Positions 2,857 to 27,148 of a stretch of DNA of 34,986 nt are shown here, in pieces (position 1 is the first letter of the stretch; each line of letters starts with the position of its first letter). The stretch is from Candidatus Saccharimonadia bacterium (GTDB lineage Bacteria > Patescibacteriota > Saccharimonadia > Saccharimonadales > Saccharimonadaceae). Position numbers and translations under genes: made by a program. The stretch spans positions 1 through 34,986 of the forward strand of contig JALQVV010000002.1 in NCBI GenBank assembly GCA_023260255.1. The letters run 5' to 3'. The notes under the pieces are model-generated. The model saw only the letters and a program-made list of their open reading frames with translations. It was not told the origin of the DNA and ran no database searches.

Positions 2857-4041
2857 ATGAAAGTAACGATTGTGGGCGGCGGTTTCGGGGGTGTGAAAAC
2901 AGCACTTGAATTGGCTAAAAACAAACAGAACCGTGTGACGTTGATTAGCGATAAAGATGAGTTTCAGTTTTATCCGGTGCTCTATGCAACTGCAACTGGC
3001 CGTAGTCATCTGCAGTCATGGGTACCACTCGGGACGATTTTTGCTGATAAGCCCAACGTTGATGTTGTTCTGGACAGTGTCACCAACGTAAATCCTACAA
3101 AAAAACAACTACAGGCTGCAAGCGGTAATACATATGAATACGAACACCTTGTATTGGCGCTTGGGACAGTGACGACTTACTTTGGTATCAAGGGCCTGGA
3201 CCACTATGCTTTCGGTATTAAATCCGAAGCTGAAATACACAAACTCAAACACCATCTGTTCCAGCAAATGAACGAACAGCGAACCGTCGACAAGCATTAT
3301 GTCATTGTTGGCGGTGGTCCGACAGGTGTTGAGTTGGCTGCTACGCTCGGGTCGTATCTGAAGCGTTTGAGCAAAGACTATGGATTGCCGAATCGTAAAA
3401 TCAGAATTAATCTTGTCGAGGCATCACCACGATTACTCCCACGCATGCACCCTAAGACGAGTGAGCGAGTTAAAAAGCGGTTGGAAAAGCTTGGTGTCCA
3501 TGTAGAGCTGGATAAAAAAGTTGAATCGGCAACAGCCAACAGCTTGACGATCAGCGGTGTGCCGCTCAATAGCCAGACAATTATATGGACATCCGGTGTC
3601 GCCAATCATCCTTTCTATATGGCGAATGATAAACATTTCGAATTCGCAAAGAATGGCAAAATAGTCGTCAATCAATATATGCGAACAAAAGACGGTATTT
3701 ATGTGATTGGTGACAATGCCGCAACGCCTTTTAGTGGACTGGCACAGACGGCATTATATGATGCGCATTTTGTTGGCCATAATTTCAAGTTGCGACAAGC
3801 TCACAAGCCGCTGAAAAAATACCATCCGCGATTGCAGCCGGTGGTTATACCGCTTGGTGAAGACTGGGCCGCGTTTGAATGGCACGGCATACGTGTGTAC
3901 GGTTGGATCGGAGCATTGATGCATCATGCTGCAGATGCATTGATGTATTATGATGTGCTGCCACTTTTCCGAGCACTCAGTGTGTGGCGCAGCCGTGGCG
4001 ATTACGAGCGCGATTACTTTACGCCAACACCGCCACGATAG
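2857..4041 (+). CDS. Type II NADH dehydrogenase-like FAD oxidoreductase
   Basis: Membrane-associated flavoprotein that would pass electrons from NAD(P)H to quinone without pumping protons. Two dinucleotide-binding folds are visible: GGGFGGVKTALELA at the N-terminus for FAD and GGGPTGVELAATLG around residue 150 for NADH. GIYVIGDNAA near residue 280 is the second FAD-binding motif of this superfamily. Length (394 residues) fits NDH-2. It sits directly after the cyo operon under its own promoter, so NADH to quinol to O2 is a plausible two-step chain. No quinone biosynthesis genes are in the window. A sulfide:quinone reductase-like role is less likely, because the expected cysteines are missing. 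Confidence 0.8.
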   Translation: MKVTIVGGGFGGVKTALELAKNKQNRVTLISDKDEFQFYPVLYATATGRSHLQSWVPLGTIFADKPNVDVVLDSVTNVNPTKKQLQAASGNTYEYEHLVLALGTVTTYFGIKGLDHYAFGIKSEAEIHKLKHHLFQQMNEQRTVDKHYVIVGGGPTGVELAATLGSYLKRLSKDYGLPNRKIRINLVEASPRLLPRMHPKTSERVKKRLEKLGVHVELDKKVESATANSLTISGVPLNSQTIIWTSGVANHPFYMANDKHFEFAKNGKIVVNQYMRTKDGIYVIGDNAATPFSGLAQTALYDAHFVGHNFKLRQAHKPLKKYHPRLQPVVIPLGEDWAAFEWHGIRVYGWIGALMHHAADALMYYDVLPLFRALSVWRSRGDYERDYFTPTPPR

Positions 4042-19244: not shown

Positions 19245-21533
19245 ATGAGGTTTTCGTTCAAAAAGAGAACAGGGGTAATAAATAAACAAAACCAGCCAAA
19301 TAGTGCCGGGTTCCTATTGCCAGTCGTTATTTTTCTGGGTATAGGCATTGGTACTGTCAGTGTTGTTGCGCTGCAGTCGGTGGCTAATAACAGTACGACA
19401 CTCAATACGCAGTATTATGATTCGGCTGCGCGAGAGGCTGCGCAAGCTGGGATTGCCTCTGCGGCACAGTGCATTAAGAGTAACGATCGGTCATGGAGTG
19501 CGGATACCGATCCAGCAACCACCCTACGCCCCGATACCGGCTGCGATGGCAACGCGGTCGGCGGTCGGTCGGCATACGTGGTCGATCCAGCAGACAATCT
19601 GCCTTATGTTAGTTACTACGAAGTGGGAAATCTGCAAGCGCCCTCTTCAAACACAGTCGTTGTGACATCAACCGGCACGGTAAAGGTAAAAGGGCCAAGC
19701 GGCACGTATGTCAGCACGACAACAAGTACGGTTCGGACATTTGCCAAATCATCAACCACACCAACCGGTTATGTCAGTAAGAATGTCACCGGTGTGAGTA
19801 CTGGACCCAGTACAGCCTGTGCGGTTGCTGAAGGCTGGGTATATTGTTGGGGAAGTAACGCCAACAAGATGGTAGGTGCAGGTAAAAATTTTGCCAATGA
19901 TAGGGCGCTCCTTCCAACCAAAGTTGCCGATAACGGAGCGACAACAACGGCCCTTCCTGGTTCCCCAAATCCTTGTGGGGGCTTCCTTCAGCCAGGGTGC
20001 GTGACGAACCCAACCCCAGCCCAACCCAAAAGTGCTTTGACGAATGCGGATGGTAGTCGCAAATATGTCATGAAAGTAAGCGTTGGCAGCACACATGTGT
20101 GCGTCATGGCAAAAGATAGTCAGAGTGCCAATGACAATACGGCAAATGCCTATTGCTGGGGCGATAATGCAAGTGGTCAGTTGGGTACGCGTAATACAAC
20201 GGATACCATGACGCCTGTTGCTGTCGACACAGCGCCGTATGTGCCAGCTGAAGTCTCAACCGGACAGTGTGGTGGCTGGTTCCAGCGCGCGTGCAATCCG
20301 GCAGCTCCTGCGAGTGCGTTGAATGGCAAAAATATCAAGGATATTAGTGCTGGCAGTGGCTTCACCTGCGCACTGACAACCGATGGCCACGTGAGTTGCT
20401 GGGGGGCAAATGATAGCGGGCAACTCGGGACGGGTGATAGCTCAACATACAACTACCCAGTGGCTGTCAATGAAGATCCCTATGTGCCAGCTGAAGTCTC
20501 AACCGGACAGTGTGGTGGCTGGTTCCAGCGGCCCTGTAACCCAGCGGTGCCTGCCAGCGCCTTGAACGGTAAGTCGGTGAAGGCGCTCGGTCGAGTAAAA
20601 GCAGCGAGGACGATGTGTGTCATTGAGACCGATGATAAACACGCCTGTTGGGGCGAAAACTGGTCGGGGCAAGCTGGGGATGGAACGAAATCAGGCAATA
20701 CAACATCAACAACCGATTGTTCAGGTGGCAACTCATCGACACCGCCAGACTCATCTTTCCCTATTACATCTGCGGCTGACGAGCTACGGCCAGTCGAAGT
20801 GCAAACAACACTCAAGTTTGACTCGATCACAACATTCGGTGGAAGTGATTGGGGCTATACCATCGCAAAAACCTCTAGTTCATCGACGAATCCAAACCGT
20901 GTGTTCTATTGGGGTGGCACGACGGATGTCTCGTCCAAGACACGGCGAGCATGTGGAAGTACCGGTGGGTCGAGTGGTCCAGGTGTCAATAAGTATGAAT
21001 GGACAGGCACTCGCACCTATACGGGACAAACAACCCCAACTGGACCCCTCTTCAATGATTCCTCTGCTGGATCTCTCAATGGTGCGACACTCAGTCTTAT
21101 ATCGGGTAATGCTATCAACGGGCTATTTTGCGCCCAGACAACAACAAATGTTTCGTACTGTACAACCAACGGCGGGCGCGCAGCCGATGGCCAGACAGGT
21201 AATGGAACTGTCGTGTCATGTTCGACGAACTGGCTTGGTGTTGAAACCTGTACGCCGTCAATCCCTTCGGGGCCGCAACCGGTCAAATTGACAGGCGCTC
21301 TAGCAGGACAACTGCCGATCACTGATATAGACACCGGGTCGAGCGGCTATACCTGTGCCGTGGCAGCAAATGCGGTCTATTGTTGGGGGGTTAATAGCAG
21401 TGGTCAGGCAGGGGTTAATAACACAACCGATCAGTTTGAACCCGCTCGCCAATACCTCGACCCACCGAGTGACTTAGGTGTACAGTCGTCTGCATCCGGT
21501 ACGACGGTATGGAGTGATCCAGTAAACTTCTAG
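19245..21533 (+). CDS. Prepilin-like surface protein with RCC1-type repeats
   Basis: 762-residue protein, probably exported. The N-terminus is a short basic stretch, then SAGFLLPVVIFLGIGIGTV, a hydrophobic helix in the style of type IV pilin or PilX-like proteins (small residue, then Phe, then a long apolar run; the usual Glu5 is not present). After about residue 190 come RCC1-like beta-propeller blades with a repeated CWG core followed by GQxG: near residues 200, 303, 384, 466 and 713, plus a degenerate one (YWG) near 554. Many cysteines suggest disulfides outside the cell. Two blades share an 81-residue duplication. A host- or surface-binding role is a guess. Confidence 0.72.
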   Translation: MRFSFKKRTGVINKQNQPNSAGFLLPVVIFLGIGIGTVSVVALQSVANNSTTLNTQYYDSAAREAAQAGIASAAQCIKSNDRSWSADTDPATTLRPDTGCDGNAVGGRSAYVVDPADNLPYVSYYEVGNLQAPSSNTVVVTSTGTVKVKGPSGTYVSTTTSTVRTFAKSSTTPTGYVSKNVTGVSTGPSTACAVAEGWVYCWGSNANKMVGAGKNFANDRALLPTKVADNGATTTALPGSPNPCGGFLQPGCVTNPTPAQPKSALTNADGSRKYVMKVSVGSTHVCVMAKDSQSANDNTANAYCWGDNASGQLGTRNTTDTMTPVAVDTAPYVPAEVSTGQCGGWFQRACNPAAPASALNGKNIKDISAGSGFTCALTTDGHVSCWGANDSGQLGTGDSSTYNYPVAVNEDPYVPAEVSTGQCGGWFQRPCNPAVPASALNGKSVKALGRVKAARTMCVIETDDKHACWGENWSGQAGDGTKSGNTTSTTDCSGGNSSTPPDSSFPITSAADELRPVEVQTTLKFDSITTFGGSDWGYTIAKTSSSSTNPNRVFYWGGTTDVSSKTRRACGSTGGSSGPGVNKYEWTGTRTYTGQTTPTGPLFNDSSAGSLNGATLSLISGNAINGLFCAQTTTNVSYCTTNGGRAADGQTGNGTVVSCSTNWLGVETCTPSIPSGPQPVKLTGALAGQLPITDIDTGSSGYTCAVAANAVYCWGVNSSGQAGVNNTTDQFEPARQYLDPPSDLGVQSSASGTTVWSDPVNF
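20238..20287 (+). repeat. Exact 50-bp direct repeat, copy 1
   Basis: Identical to 20481-20530 over 50 bases, offset 243 bp (81 codons), encoding VPAEVSTGQCGGWFQR. Flanking repeat sequence has diverged, mostly at third codon positions. Confidence 0.9.
20481..20530 (+). repeat. Exact 50-bp direct repeat, copy 2
   Basis: Second copy of the 50-bp repeat in the RCC1-type gene. Perfect identity next to diverged sequence suggests gene conversion or a recent slip between blades. Confidence 0.9.
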
Positions 21534-21548
21534 TTACTTGCATAAGCA

Positions 21549-21557
21549 TGATAAAAT
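21549..21557 (+). promoter_or_regulatory. Extended -10 promoter for the protease-like gene
   Basis: TGATAAAAT, 10 nt before the ATG at 21568. It argues for the internal start rather than an ATG at 21538, which lies upstream of this box. Confidence 0.55.
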
Positions 21558-21567
21558 AACCATAAGC

Positions 21568-24180
21568 ATGGAAGATTCGTCGACGAACCCGTATATCCCG
21601 CAGGAGTCTGAGGCTATTCGGCAAAAAGTATACCAGCAACAATCGCCGCTTGGACGCGTGGTGAAATGGTCGCTGATTGCGACAATTATTGTTGCAGTGC
21701 TTGTAGGGATTGGTTTGTTTTTTGTTGTTCCACGAAGTGAAGCGGTTGATCAACAGGCTCGGGTAAAACTTGCTGACGCATTGCAGCCACCCGATCAGAC
21801 ATTAAAACGTGTTCCAGTCCAGTCAGATCTTGGATTCAAACTGAATTATGACAACCGTGTTTATAGTAGCTATGCAGAAGTAGGTGACAGCACGGCAGGG
21901 TCGGATAGTAGCGCTGCAGTCTTGTCGGGTCAAACATATGAAAACAATGATTTGCGGGTGACTCGTGCCTACAATTATGTTCGTATTCGGCCGATTGAAA
22001 GTGTTGAAGGTGCACGTGCGTTGGCGACTCAACCACCCCAACTTGAATTATTTGCAACCGTCACAGACAAAGATTTAACAACCGCTGCAACAGTTGCGGA
22101 GAATAAGGGGCTGTCCAAGCTTAGTTTGTTCGTTAAGCTTGATTCCGACAAGCGTTTGGCGAAAAAGGTGGCCGATGACAAAACAGTTGTCACAATCGAA
22201 GCCTCAAAACCTGTTTCGGCGAGTATTGGAAGTGTTGACTATCAAAAAGTGAGGTTTACGACAACGAACGATAACCACCGCGTTTCCAATGTGCAATATG
22301 ATGACTGCTACTACACAATTCAAAATGATCAGCCTTATTCCGTGTGTATCAGTAATGTCCGACCTACCAATGTCAGTGCTGCGAGTTTGGTGGAGCAGGT
22401 TTTCGATTCGATTACCTATGAGCAGCCTTCGGTTGACGCATCGGGGGCGGATAACAATACAGATACCAGCAAGAAGACCTCGTATGCGCTTCCGCTGGCA
22501 CGGCTTGCCAAGACATCAATAACCGATGAGGCATCGCAGTCAGGTAGTTCGGACAATACCCAGGACAGCAGTGAGGCACCACTTCTTACTATTACGCCAG
22601 AATACTACGCAGATGCTGCCAGTCTGAAAGCAATCGCCAAAAATCAGCCAAGTGTCGTGAGGATTGGCACGCTCTACTGTACGAATCTTGCTCTCAAATT
22701 TGAAAGCGGTGAAACAGCCACAACGCTGACCGATGCTTGTGCTGGCACGGTGGCGAGCGGTGTATTTATTTCAAAAGATGGCTATGTTGCGACGACTGGT
22801 CATGCGATTCGCGCACAGAAAAAAGCAGCGATCAACGGGTATATTAACTTTGCTCCAGATCAAGATCAGATGCTCGATCGTTTGCAGCGTATTCTCGACT
22901 ACCTGCTAAAGGCAAAGATTATTCTGCAGTCAGACGCGGACTATCTGAAAACAGGCGCTTCTATCGGCGATCAAGAAGCGCTCGCGAAAGTTGAAAACAT
23001 TGCTTCTGTCATACCGGATAATTTTATCGTGCCGGTGAACGAAAGCTACACTTACGCGATTCAGCCAACCGATAAGCCAATCGTCATCAACAGGACAGAT
23101 AGCAACAAGCCAGCGTTTGCCTACTCGGATAGTGTACTGAATGCAAAATATGTTGCATCTAATTATGATGCGGCAAAATCCATTCAGGAGGTCTTCGGGA
23201 GTCAGACGCCATCGACTGACGTCGGACTATTAAAAGTCGATGGTGATTTTCCAAATGTTTCAATAGCAGCCAATGAGGATGTCAAAGCGAATGACACGCT
23301 GAGCACTGTTGGCTATTCTGCCTACACCGATAGTTCGCTAACAATCGACAAGATCCGCAATATTCCTGTGGTTACCTCAAGTAAGGTCGAGCAAGCCTAC
23401 CAAAAAGATGGTGGTCGTTTGATTCAGACAAATATGCCAGTGCTCCCTGGGAATGATGGAGCGCCAGTCTTTTCGAGTACTGGCAGCCTGGTTGGTTTTG
23501 CCGTCTATGGCTTGTTGTATTGCCCGGATCAACAGTGTTTTGCAAACGGCACCGTTCGATCATCAGCTGAACTCGTAAAATTATTGGACGACAGTAACAT
23601 CAAACTAGATACTTCTAGTAAAGCGTCGGCAACATGGGAGGAAGGCGTTCACCAGTATTTCCGCGCCAACTATGCAACGAGTACGACCGCATTTGCTGCT
23701 GGGGGAAATGAATATCCATTCAACCGATGGGCGGAGCCACTCAGTAAATTATCGAGTAGTCTAGAAGGTTCTCAGAGCGATACATCACTATGGAATCAGC
23801 TGCAAACGATTATGATCGTCGCGCTAATTATCCTGGTTGTACTGACAATAGTACTTGCGATTGCTTACTTCCTTCACCGTCGTCGGATTAGCTATTTGCA
23901 GGTTGGTCATTATGGTGCCGCTGAACCGCAACCTACTGTTATGGGGCCATCTGCGACATCAATGCAGCCACCCACTGCGCTTCCTCCGGCTCAACCTACA
24001 CAACCTACGCAACCTTTTCAACCATCGGCCGCACCAGCTCAACCTGGACAGCCTATTCAGCCGCAAACGCCATCACTCCAGATGCCTGTTCAGTCACCGC
24101 CAAGCTCCTCCGCACAGCAATACCCGCCTGCAGCGCCCACGGCTCCTTCGACACCGCCAGAAGATCCATTCTACAAATAG
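21568..24180 (+). CDS. Membrane-anchored trypsin-fold (S1) protein, nucleophile replaced
   Basis: 870-residue protein with an N-terminal anchor (about 30-52, KWSLIATIIVAVLVGIGLFF), a long outer region, a trypsin-like domain at about 340-665, a second membrane helix at about 740-765 (TIMIVALIILVVLTIVLAIA) and a Pro/Gln-rich cytoplasmic tail. The protease fold shows SGVFISKDGYVATTGHAI with His412 and DVGLLKVDGDFP with Asp551. The nucleophile loop reads PGNDGAPV, with Asp630 where active enzymes have Ser (GNSGGPV). It is therefore probably an inactive binding or scaffold protein, unless another residue serves. It follows the RCC1-type gene by 34 bp. Function not known. Confidence 0.75.
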   Translation: MEDSSTNPYIPQESEAIRQKVYQQQSPLGRVVKWSLIATIIVAVLVGIGLFFVVPRSEAVDQQARVKLADALQPPDQTLKRVPVQSDLGFKLNYDNRVYSSYAEVGDSTAGSDSSAAVLSGQTYENNDLRVTRAYNYVRIRPIESVEGARALATQPPQLELFATVTDKDLTTAATVAENKGLSKLSLFVKLDSDKRLAKKVADDKTVVTIEASKPVSASIGSVDYQKVRFTTTNDNHRVSNVQYDDCYYTIQNDQPYSVCISNVRPTNVSAASLVEQVFDSITYEQPSVDASGADNNTDTSKKTSYALPLARLAKTSITDEASQSGSSDNTQDSSEAPLLTITPEYYADAASLKAIAKNQPSVVRIGTLYCTNLALKFESGETATTLTDACAGTVASGVFISKDGYVATTGHAIRAQKKAAINGYINFAPDQDQMLDRLQRILDYLLKAKIILQSDADYLKTGASIGDQEALAKVENIASVIPDNFIVPVNESYTYAIQPTDKPIVINRTDSNKPAFAYSDSVLNAKYVASNYDAAKSIQEVFGSQTPSTDVGLLKVDGDFPNVSIAANEDVKANDTLSTVGYSAYTDSSLTIDKIRNIPVVTSSKVEQAYQKDGGRLIQTNMPVLPGNDGAPVFSSTGSLVGFAVYGLLYCPDQQCFANGTVRSSAELVKLLDDSNIKLDTSSKASATWEEGVHQYFRANYATSTTAFAAGGNEYPFNRWAEPLSKLSSSLEGSQSDTSLWNQLQTIMIVALIILVVLTIVLAIAYFLHRRRISYLQVGHYGAAEPQPTVMGPSATSMQPPTALPPAQPTQPTQPFQPSAAPAQPGQPIQPQTPSLQMPVQSPPSSSAQQYPPAAPTAPSTPPEDPFYK

Positions 24181-25590: not shown

Positions 25591-26077
25591 TGCGCGGTGA
25601 GGATCGTTCTTGTATTATTACCCCGACAGCCGTGGAAAGAAATGTTGTACCCGCTCTGGTGAGTATGAGATCAGAGCTACATGTTAGCAGCAGGGCCAGT
25701 CGGACCCACGCACTCGGTCTCGTTCGATGTCGCGCACGTGCGCGCATGGCCGAGCGATCGGATCCATTACCATCCGGCAGTGAACTGTCAGTGACGCTGG
25801 CACGACGACCGGAGGGATCCATCAGCGGGCCCGACCCTCTTGTATCCTGCGGTCCCTGCGGGGGCACGTCGGACGACGGCATGCGCCGTGGCGAGAGGGC
25901 ATGGCACGTCTGATCGCGCTACAGAACCGGACTCGGAGTCTGTGCCCTGGGCGAGCGAAAGCACAGGACGGCGCGATCGCATCGCTCCTTTGCGAAGCCT
26001 GCCGCTATCATGGAACGACGGTACCCCGAGCACCCACGTGGTGGGCTGCCACAAACTTTTTCCACCTCGGGTGTACT

Positions 26078-26089
26078 GCCATAACCCGG
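26078..26089 (+). other. Putative retron a2 strand
   Basis: Core CCATAACCC (26079-26087) pairs with the a1 strand 490 bp upstream. The final hairpin can shorten to 9 bp (26088-26108) and stack directly on this helix without conflict. Confidence 0.6.
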
Positions 26090-26122
26090 TTCTCGCATAG
26101 CGGGAACCGGGCAACTTACTAT

Positions 26123-27148
26123 ATGAAGAGTAATCGAAATTATATACCACGCAAAAAGCACAGAGAGATCTGGACGCCGAACGAATACGAACTTGCTGTT
26201 CATCGTGAGTTTTTGCATGCGCTTTCATGGTTATCGAATAATCCTCAGGTCCACGCACCATTTATACCGCTGATTGCTCCAGAAAATGTGACTCTGTATG
26301 AACCGGGGGTTGTGTCGCGTTACGCCGTCGGAGGTCTTAAGGGCGGTGGTGTTCGGGCAAATGCCGAGCGGCATGCGAATAACCGGCATTTCTTTGTGAC
26401 GGATATCCGATCGGCATACACAAATGTCTCCATGGATCGACTCAATGAAAAGATGGCAGAGGCATTTACTCCTTCGACTGCGGGTTGGTTTAAAGAAATA
26501 CAGCAGTATTGGTGGCCTGACGGCCAAAAAGGTCTGCCGCAAGGCTCGCCATTATCGCCCTTTTTGTTTAATGTTTATTGTCACGACTTAGATGAGCGGA
26601 TCGGTGAAATAACCAAAGAGATGATGGGTGGTAAGCCTGTCTATACCAGATATATTGACGATATTACTGTTTCTGTTTCGGCTGAAAAGGACGGGGTTCC
26701 AAAATGGTTGGGCCGCAAGATTATTACTGCGATTCGGGAGTATGGGTTTGATGTAGCTGACCACAAGACTGCCTATATGAGTCTCGATCGCGGACCGCTG
26801 ACTATTACGGGAGTCCGCATCCAACCGGATGGAACGTTCTCGCTGCCGCATCAGCAGATTGTCGATGCTAAGGCAGCGGCATGGCAGTATGATTTAGAGG
26901 GCAGTCCTGATGCACCTGAATATGCTGATCGACTTCGTGGGTATTATGGTTTGGCATTATCGGTGTGTCCGCGAGGTACAGAAACGACAGAAGCCATGGA
27001 ACAACTCAGGGCAATGTTGCGCCGGCGAGTGATTGACTCGCATAGACAAGAAGCTGGGTATGAAGAAGACTTGAGGATGTCCGTTCCTAGGATAACAACT
27101 CAATCGAGCCATACGATAGGTCAGCTTGCACTCTTTGATATCTCATAA
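26123..27148 (+). CDS. Retron-type reverse transcriptase
   Basis: 341-residue RNA-dependent DNA polymerase. Motifs in order: NAERH at 80-84 (the retron NAxxH motif), motif A FFVTDIRSAY with catalytic D94, motif B GLPQGSPLSPFLFN at 137-150, motif C YTRYIDDITVS with D179-D180, motif D EYGFDVADHKT at 206-216, motif E TITGVRI at 227-233 (retron VTG), and LRGYYGLALSV in the thumb. These align in order with retron Ec86 RT as I remember it, including equal spacing from NAxxH to the motif A Asp. YIDD replaces the usual YADD. No maturase, endonuclease or fused effector domain is seen. I chose the ATG at 26123; an in-frame ATG at 25901 would translate through the structured RNA. No Shine-Dalgarno is visible, and the stem ending at 26111 is 11 nt upstream. 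Confidence 0.88.
   Translation: MKSNRNYIPRKKHREIWTPNEYELAVHREFLHALSWLSNNPQVHAPFIPLIAPENVTLYEPGVVSRYAVGGLKGGGVRANAERHANNRHFFVTDIRSAYTNVSMDRLNEKMAEAFTPSTAGWFKEIQQYWWPDGQKGLPQGSPLSPFLFNVYCHDLDERIGEITKEMMGGKPVYTRYIDDITVSVSAEKDGVPKWLGRKIITAIREYGFDVADHKTAYMSLDRGPLTITGVRIQPDGTFSLPHQQIVDAKAAAWQYDLEGSPDAPEYADRLRGYYGLALSVCPRGTETTEAMEQLRAMLRRRVIDSHRQEAGYEEDLRMSVPRITTQSSHTIGQLALFDIS

Follow-up and report, generated by a model that had tools for sequence, protein, structure and literature searches.

Here we ask what a protein that begins like a prepilin and ends as a propeller could do for a Saccharibacterium when its gene stands apart from the pilus genes. The window, the whole stretch of 34,986 nucleotides that was analysed, is an entire contig (C24) of a 1.02 Mb assembly in 121 contigs that is 98% complete. 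On its forward strand, adjoining uvrB, an unbroken frame of 762 codons runs from an ATG start as an orphan, unlinked to pilus genes. The most likely reading of its product, and one that we consider probable, is a PilX2-type modular minor type IV pilin that acts as a pilus-tip adhesin.

19245..21533, forward strand: probable PilX2-type modular minor pilin with an RCC1 propeller head (open reading frame; Pfam RCC1 E 3.6e-21; AF2 mean pLDDT 76, pTM 0.69).

That the protein has a prepilin-style hydrophobic start was proposed in the preliminary description and is borne out: AGFLLPVVIF occupies residues 21-30 and follows a leader that has five Lys/Arg but lacks acidic residues. Hydrophobicity peaks in a segment that starts at residue 23 (19-residue mean 2.48), and the hydrophobicity profile of the 762 residues contains no second segment that looks membrane-spanning. 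The stem that precedes the propeller consists of three parts.

19245..19310, forward strand: basic leader, residues 1-22 (5 K/R, 0 D/E), ending in Gly22, after which prepilin peptidase presumably cuts (G^FLLPV, no Glu5; Gly/Ala in 108/109).
19311..19478, forward strand: long helix alpha1, residues 23-78, a hydrophobic half followed by an AxEAAxAG half (AF2 helix 24-78; 14-67 in the stem model).
19479..19784, forward strand: rest of the stem, residues 79-180, a small beta-sheet (121-168, AF2 strands) and a linker, with Cys76-Cys100 (Cys in 107/109 and 108/109 stems).

Across the stem family, the residue at -1 is Gly in 102 and Ala in 6 of 109 stems, a Cys pair, a Trp and the AxEAAxAG motif are conserved, and the conserved domain extends 100 residues beyond the membrane segment. 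Position +5 is Glu in none of the 109 stems (Val in the present protein), and Glu5 is invariant across the alignments of the V and W partner pilins. The absence of Glu5 counts against a major pilin or an ordinary one, but not against a tip subunit. In its own AF2 model (pLDDT 85), the stem is laid out as a long helix and an antiparallel sheet. A Foldseek search of this model against the PDB returned nothing significant, pilin or other (best E 0.076), and the stem matches no Pfam pilin family, N_methyl included. Membership of PilX_N (PF14341) was dropped, as the match is at best marginal in the group and above cut-off in none of 15 genomes. The predicted fold appears right in layout for a pilin and is unproven by structure comparison.

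The lack of a Pfam pilin match or a fold match for the stem and the orphan locus in the window would also fit a cell-surface propeller held on an uncleaved N-terminal signal anchor outside any pilus, with a pilin likeness that amounts to a basic leader and a hydrophobic helix; the stem-less, Sec-type RCC1 proteins of the same genome, described below, point the same way. We consider this unlikely. Gly or Ala at -1 in 108 of the 109 stems, a conserved domain that reaches well past the membrane segment, the long helix and the near-invariant Cys pair are not those of an ordinary signal anchor.

The head matches Pfam RCC1 (PF00415) at 75.9 bits against a cut-off of 21.7, too far above it to be a chance match. 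The AF2 model of the whole protein, built from an 18-row alignment, has a 55-residue helix at 24-78, followed by a sheet at 121-168 and by seven blades that span 181-736, and the propeller matches UVR8 and RCC1 structures in a Foldseek search against the PDB. The RCC1-type blades proposed earlier from the sequence are thus matched by structure prediction, and the predicted seven-bladed fold is well supported. The outcome that the preliminary description had named as refuting, an ordinary signal anchor and no propeller fold, was obtained in neither of its halves.

19785..21452, forward strand: predicted seven-bladed RCC1-type propeller, residues 181-736 (AF2 strands; best Foldseek match UVR8, 6dd7, E 1.9e-27, target TM 0.83), with blades at about residues 181-226, 274-326, 364-407, 445-518, 525-599, 616-670 and 692-736.
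19974..20000, forward strand: inter-blade, disulfide-type loop CGGFLQPGC, residues 244-252 (from the sequence; putative pairing).
20268..20294, forward strand: inter-blade loop CGGWFQRAC, residues 342-350 (from the sequence; similar loops in the Sec-type paralogues on C52 and C81).
20511..20537, forward strand: inter-blade loop CGGWFQRPC, residues 423-431 (from the sequence).
20214..20329, forward strand: copy 1 of an internal duplication (116 nt, 80% identical, spacing 243 nt or 81 aa).
20457..20572, forward strand: copy 2 of the same duplication.

As had been noticed, the protein is rich in Cys and has repeated CWG blades; we count 24 Cys and five C-x(n)-CWG blade cores. The Cys fall mostly in neighbouring pairs: the stem has one, most blades have one each, and others close inter-blade loops, three of which (listed above) are aromatic-tipped. 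As far as can be read from the sequence, these pairs would form disulfides; a gene for VKOR, which serves disulfides, is present in the genome. The propeller shares its seven-bladed fold with UVR8 and RCC1 at about 18% identity, but unlike them it would be extracellular, carries Cys in nearly every blade and has no Ran or light-sensing link.

The earlier remark that the window contains no pilus genes holds, in that no other ORF in the window has a prepilin motif including Glu5. No Rfam RNA was found in the window. A second ORF follows the pilin gene closely.

21538..24180, forward strand: membrane-anchored trypsin-like protein (Pfam Trypsin_2 E 2.6e-13), adjacent downstream ORF given as context only, outside the pilin.

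This ORF starts 4 nt past the stop of the pilin gene, with an in-frame ATG at 21568, and is possibly co-transcribed with it. Some 4 kb downstream of the pilin gene lies a reverse transcriptase (25901-27148, forward strand) that bears the motifs QGSPLSP and YIDD; it is nearest to retron St85-type and DRT/retron reverse transcriptase models, below their curated cut-offs, and is possibly a defence reverse transcriptase or a retron. Its position led us to consider a diversity-generating retroelement acting on the pilin gene. We rejected this, since the enzyme is retron/DRT-like and the only direct repeats between the two genes are the blade repeats of the propeller itself. A set for aerobic respiration in a Saccharibacterium lies at positions 1-2800 and 2857-4041; its members, named by eye, are cytochrome o-type oxidase subunits, a protohaem farnesyltransferase-like protein and a type II NADH dehydrogenase-like protein.

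The genome search that the preliminary description had proposed found a prepilin peptidase, two assembly loci and minor-pilin genes. PilD is encoded on contig C120, as are two pilins and PilM, N, O, B, T and C; contig C2 has another set of PilB, C, M, N and O. On contig C114, the frames of two canonical minor pilins (N_methyl) overlap that of a second RCC1-pilin, which has the same type of stem and is 33% identical to the present protein across residues 13-219 of the latter. V and W profile searches found just one full-length copy of each in the genome, both of which belong to C114. Contig C83 carries a murB-like gene and then two pilins; in UBA1050 and oral taxon 348, too, the pilin cluster is flanked by a murB-like gene (named by eye), an arrangement that resembles the published locus 3. 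It was considered that C114 and C35 hold two halves of one gene split by the assembly; the ends of the two contigs share no overlap.

Other genes in this genome and in a congener deserve mention. Three more RCC1 proteins (L015 952-2646 and 3652-5625; L016 7104-8915, on contigs C52 and C81) are stem-less. Judged by eye, their signal peptides are of the Sec type; their Cys loops have aromatic tips like those listed above, and each of their genes adjoins one that encodes a member of a single family of membrane-anchored proteins (C81_DUFnext type). Propellers in this genus therefore need not sit on pili. In the congener G002, a Sec-type RCC1 gene (L068 651-2705) lies directly upstream of the T4P-1 locus, which encodes a TPR protein, a 784-aa protein and PilM, N, O, B, T and C; its product recalls PilY1 as a separate tip protein. 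The T4P-1 locus of the present genome encodes a 788-aa protein (L014 2128-4494) with a vWA-like N-terminus by eye, no Pfam match and a homologue in G002, which is a possible non-pilin tip protein. A third PilB/T2SSE-type ATPase gene (L020 590-2257, contig C40) lies apart from both pilus loci.

That the stem belongs with minor pilins is suggested by its relatives. The closest full-length relatives, from the congeners G001 and G006, are 41-46% identical to our protein in the stem and 42-45% in the head, and their genes directly precede V and W pilin genes with overlapping frames (L049 9909-13535; L050 813-4394); G006 additionally has a separate V-W-X cluster. The C114 paralogue and several other stem genes come after V-W, and the partners match N_methyl. 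Orthologues and paralogues lying within minor-pilin clusters argue against a signal-anchored surface protein. On the stem tree, the present gene, the X-V-W genes of G001 and G006 and two genes of G002 form a set of five (support 96/95), which is separate from C114 and from the majority of V-W-X genes. From the V-W pairs that G001 and G006 keep, the tree placement and the single V and W copy here, we conclude that the genus has a second tip set, whose V-W partners are gone or unassembled in this genome. Since the gene stands alone beside uvrB here while its congeners have their own V-W pair, its product probably borrows the pair of C114.

It could be argued that the gene is a leftover of the second minor-pilin cluster, unused since its V and W partners were lost, as the assembly has one V and one W gene, both of C114, and the G001 and G006 orthologues keep their own pair. 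However, the 762-codon frame is intact, and the stem and the head are about equally conserved against the orthologues. Moreover, an assembly that is 98% complete but in 121 contigs could have a gap where the missing pair lies. We regard such disuse as very improbable.

An orphan placement is common, since in several genera the stem gene adjoins the ATP synthase operon (identified by eye from sequence and gene order) and not a pilus locus. Modular pilins with the same stem lie just upstream of this operon in L064, L066, L063, L065, L059, L057, L072, L075 and L145, a placement that is conserved over many genera.

The pairing of a pilin start with RCC1 blades, which the preliminary description took to be uncommon, is in fact widespread in the group and has already been published for PilX2 of TM7x (Nanosynbacter lyticus), a minor pilin whose RCC1 propeller is hepta-bladed (PMC12206443). 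The signal predictor used in that paper called no PilD site in PilX2; deletion of pilX2 lowered the hosts bound from 10.6% to 4.6% and impaired competition, and the authors proposed PilX2 as the T4P-2 adhesin (PMC12206443). Going by the published description, both proteins have the layout of a Saccharibacterial minor pilin with a non-canonical signal peptide and a C-terminal seven-bladed RCC1 propeller. Their settings differ: pilX2 is in minor-pilin locus 3, whereas the present gene is an orphan and the locus-3 type gene of this genome is on C114. Homologues beside V- and W-type pilins resemble the published five-pilin locus 3 of TM7x. That the loss of PilX2 resembles the loss of pilA2 and pilB2 in host binding (PMC12206443) further argues against a propeller that acts outside any pilus.

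The same mutants bear on the alternative that the tip subunit mainly starts pilus assembly or has another task, such as DNA uptake or retraction control, with a propeller that is structural and no adhesin. Minor-pilin tip complexes do prime assembly (PMC10191384), and TM7x without PilX2 had thick pili of altered diameter and length; yet thin pili still form without it, and binding falls as in the pilA2 and pilB2 mutants (PMC12206443). The alternative also sits poorly with a stem that is kept while its heads are exchanged for unrelated binding folds, as described next, and we think that it is unlikely to be correct.

The stem profile matches 121 of the 295 genomes of this family; outside the family, matches were only weak among 380 sampled genomes of the phylum. 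In the oral record HOT 348, the sole stem match is a distant one (E 3.3e-7). Of 102 stem proteins, 72 bear RCC1, 21 match Ricin_B_lectin and 17 match Gly_rich_2, with single or double cases of a lactonase-type propeller, FGE-sulfatase, laminin-G, fibrinogen-C, CBM_4_9 and phage collar. The ricin domain can lie inside the RCC1 series (L064, L066), and two stems of 61% identity, from different genomes, differ in their heads, which are of the RCC1 type in L199 and Gly-rich in L204. At L054 (2142-3728), the same stem follows V and W pilins and bears a lactonase/YVTN-type propeller in place of RCC1. The stem tree requires at least 14 changes among RCC1, Gly-rich and other heads, although its well-supported branches alone force only one to three changes per head type. 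Several of the relatives' heads (ricin-B, laminin-G, fibrinogen-C, CBM, phage collar) are typical binding folds. We found no report of family-wide head exchange on this stem in the open-access papers searched; with the RCC1-pilin pairing already known from PilX2 (PMC12206443), this exchange seems to be the new part.

Binding modules on pilin stems are known from other bacteria. The modular pilins PilB (vWA) and PilC (concanavalin-A-like lectin) of S. sanguinis (PMC8179133, PMC9934059) resemble the present protein in that the module is thought to be displayed at the pilus tip, but the stem studied here is different, without Glu5 and without N_methyl/IPR012902. Modular pilins have been described as a class in a survey that used IPR012902 (PMC8179133), which stems of the present type probably escape. 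PilY1/PilC likewise places an adhesin propeller at the tip of a type IV pilus, as we propose here; PilY1 is, however, a non-pilin with a propeller of another family (IPR008707), whereas the present protein joins propeller and pilin in one chain. Its head does not match IPR008707, and RCC1-type matches alone came from Pfam and Foldseek. The tip-capping minor pilin GspK/PilK shares with the stem family the lack of Glu5 and two small minor-pilin partners in V-W-X order. No sequence or fold match to GspK/PilK was found, and the present protein carries a propeller head, not the GspK insert. The V-W-X order also recalls the gene order of I-J-K tip sets.

Taken together, the predicted fold, the conserved stem, homologues in minor-pilin clusters, PilD with two assembly loci and a published protein of the same layout with a host-binding phenotype (PMC12206443) support a propeller adhesin at the pilus tip, as first suggested, and give the pilus link strong indirect support. 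In the mechanism that we infer, the N-terminal helix would insert the protein in the membrane, the prepilin peptidase would cut after Gly22, and the helix would join the top of the growing pilus with two small minor pilins of the V and W types. According to a review, the subunit that caps the minor-pilin tip complex lacks Glu5 (PMC10191384); because the present protein lacks it too, it would occupy the outermost place in the pilus, like the GspK/PilK subunit. The disulfide-braced, seven-bladed propeller would then be held out in front of the tip, where it could bind a receptor on the bacterial host and so tether the ultrasmall parasitic Saccharibacterium. On the best reading, the protein is a PilX2-type tip pilin that is unlinked and supernumerary, a further copy beside the locus-3 type protein of C114 that probably uses the V-W pair of the latter.

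More tentatively, for we hold it at somewhat less than even confidence, the conserved tip pilin without Glu5 may serve throughout the family as an exchangeable head-holder, on which lineages swap whole binding domains (RCC1, with or without an inserted ricin-type lectin; other propellers; lectin and phage-collar folds), and in genomes such as this one two tips, one locus-linked and one orphan, may share a pilus and set host range. Judging from the stem family, a survey of modular pilins that relies on N_methyl seems to miss a large group. For how epibiotic Patescibacteria choose their hosts, TM7x PilX2 is one tested case. With about a hundred homologous stems that carry different heads, the idea that the head sets the choice of host becomes testable.
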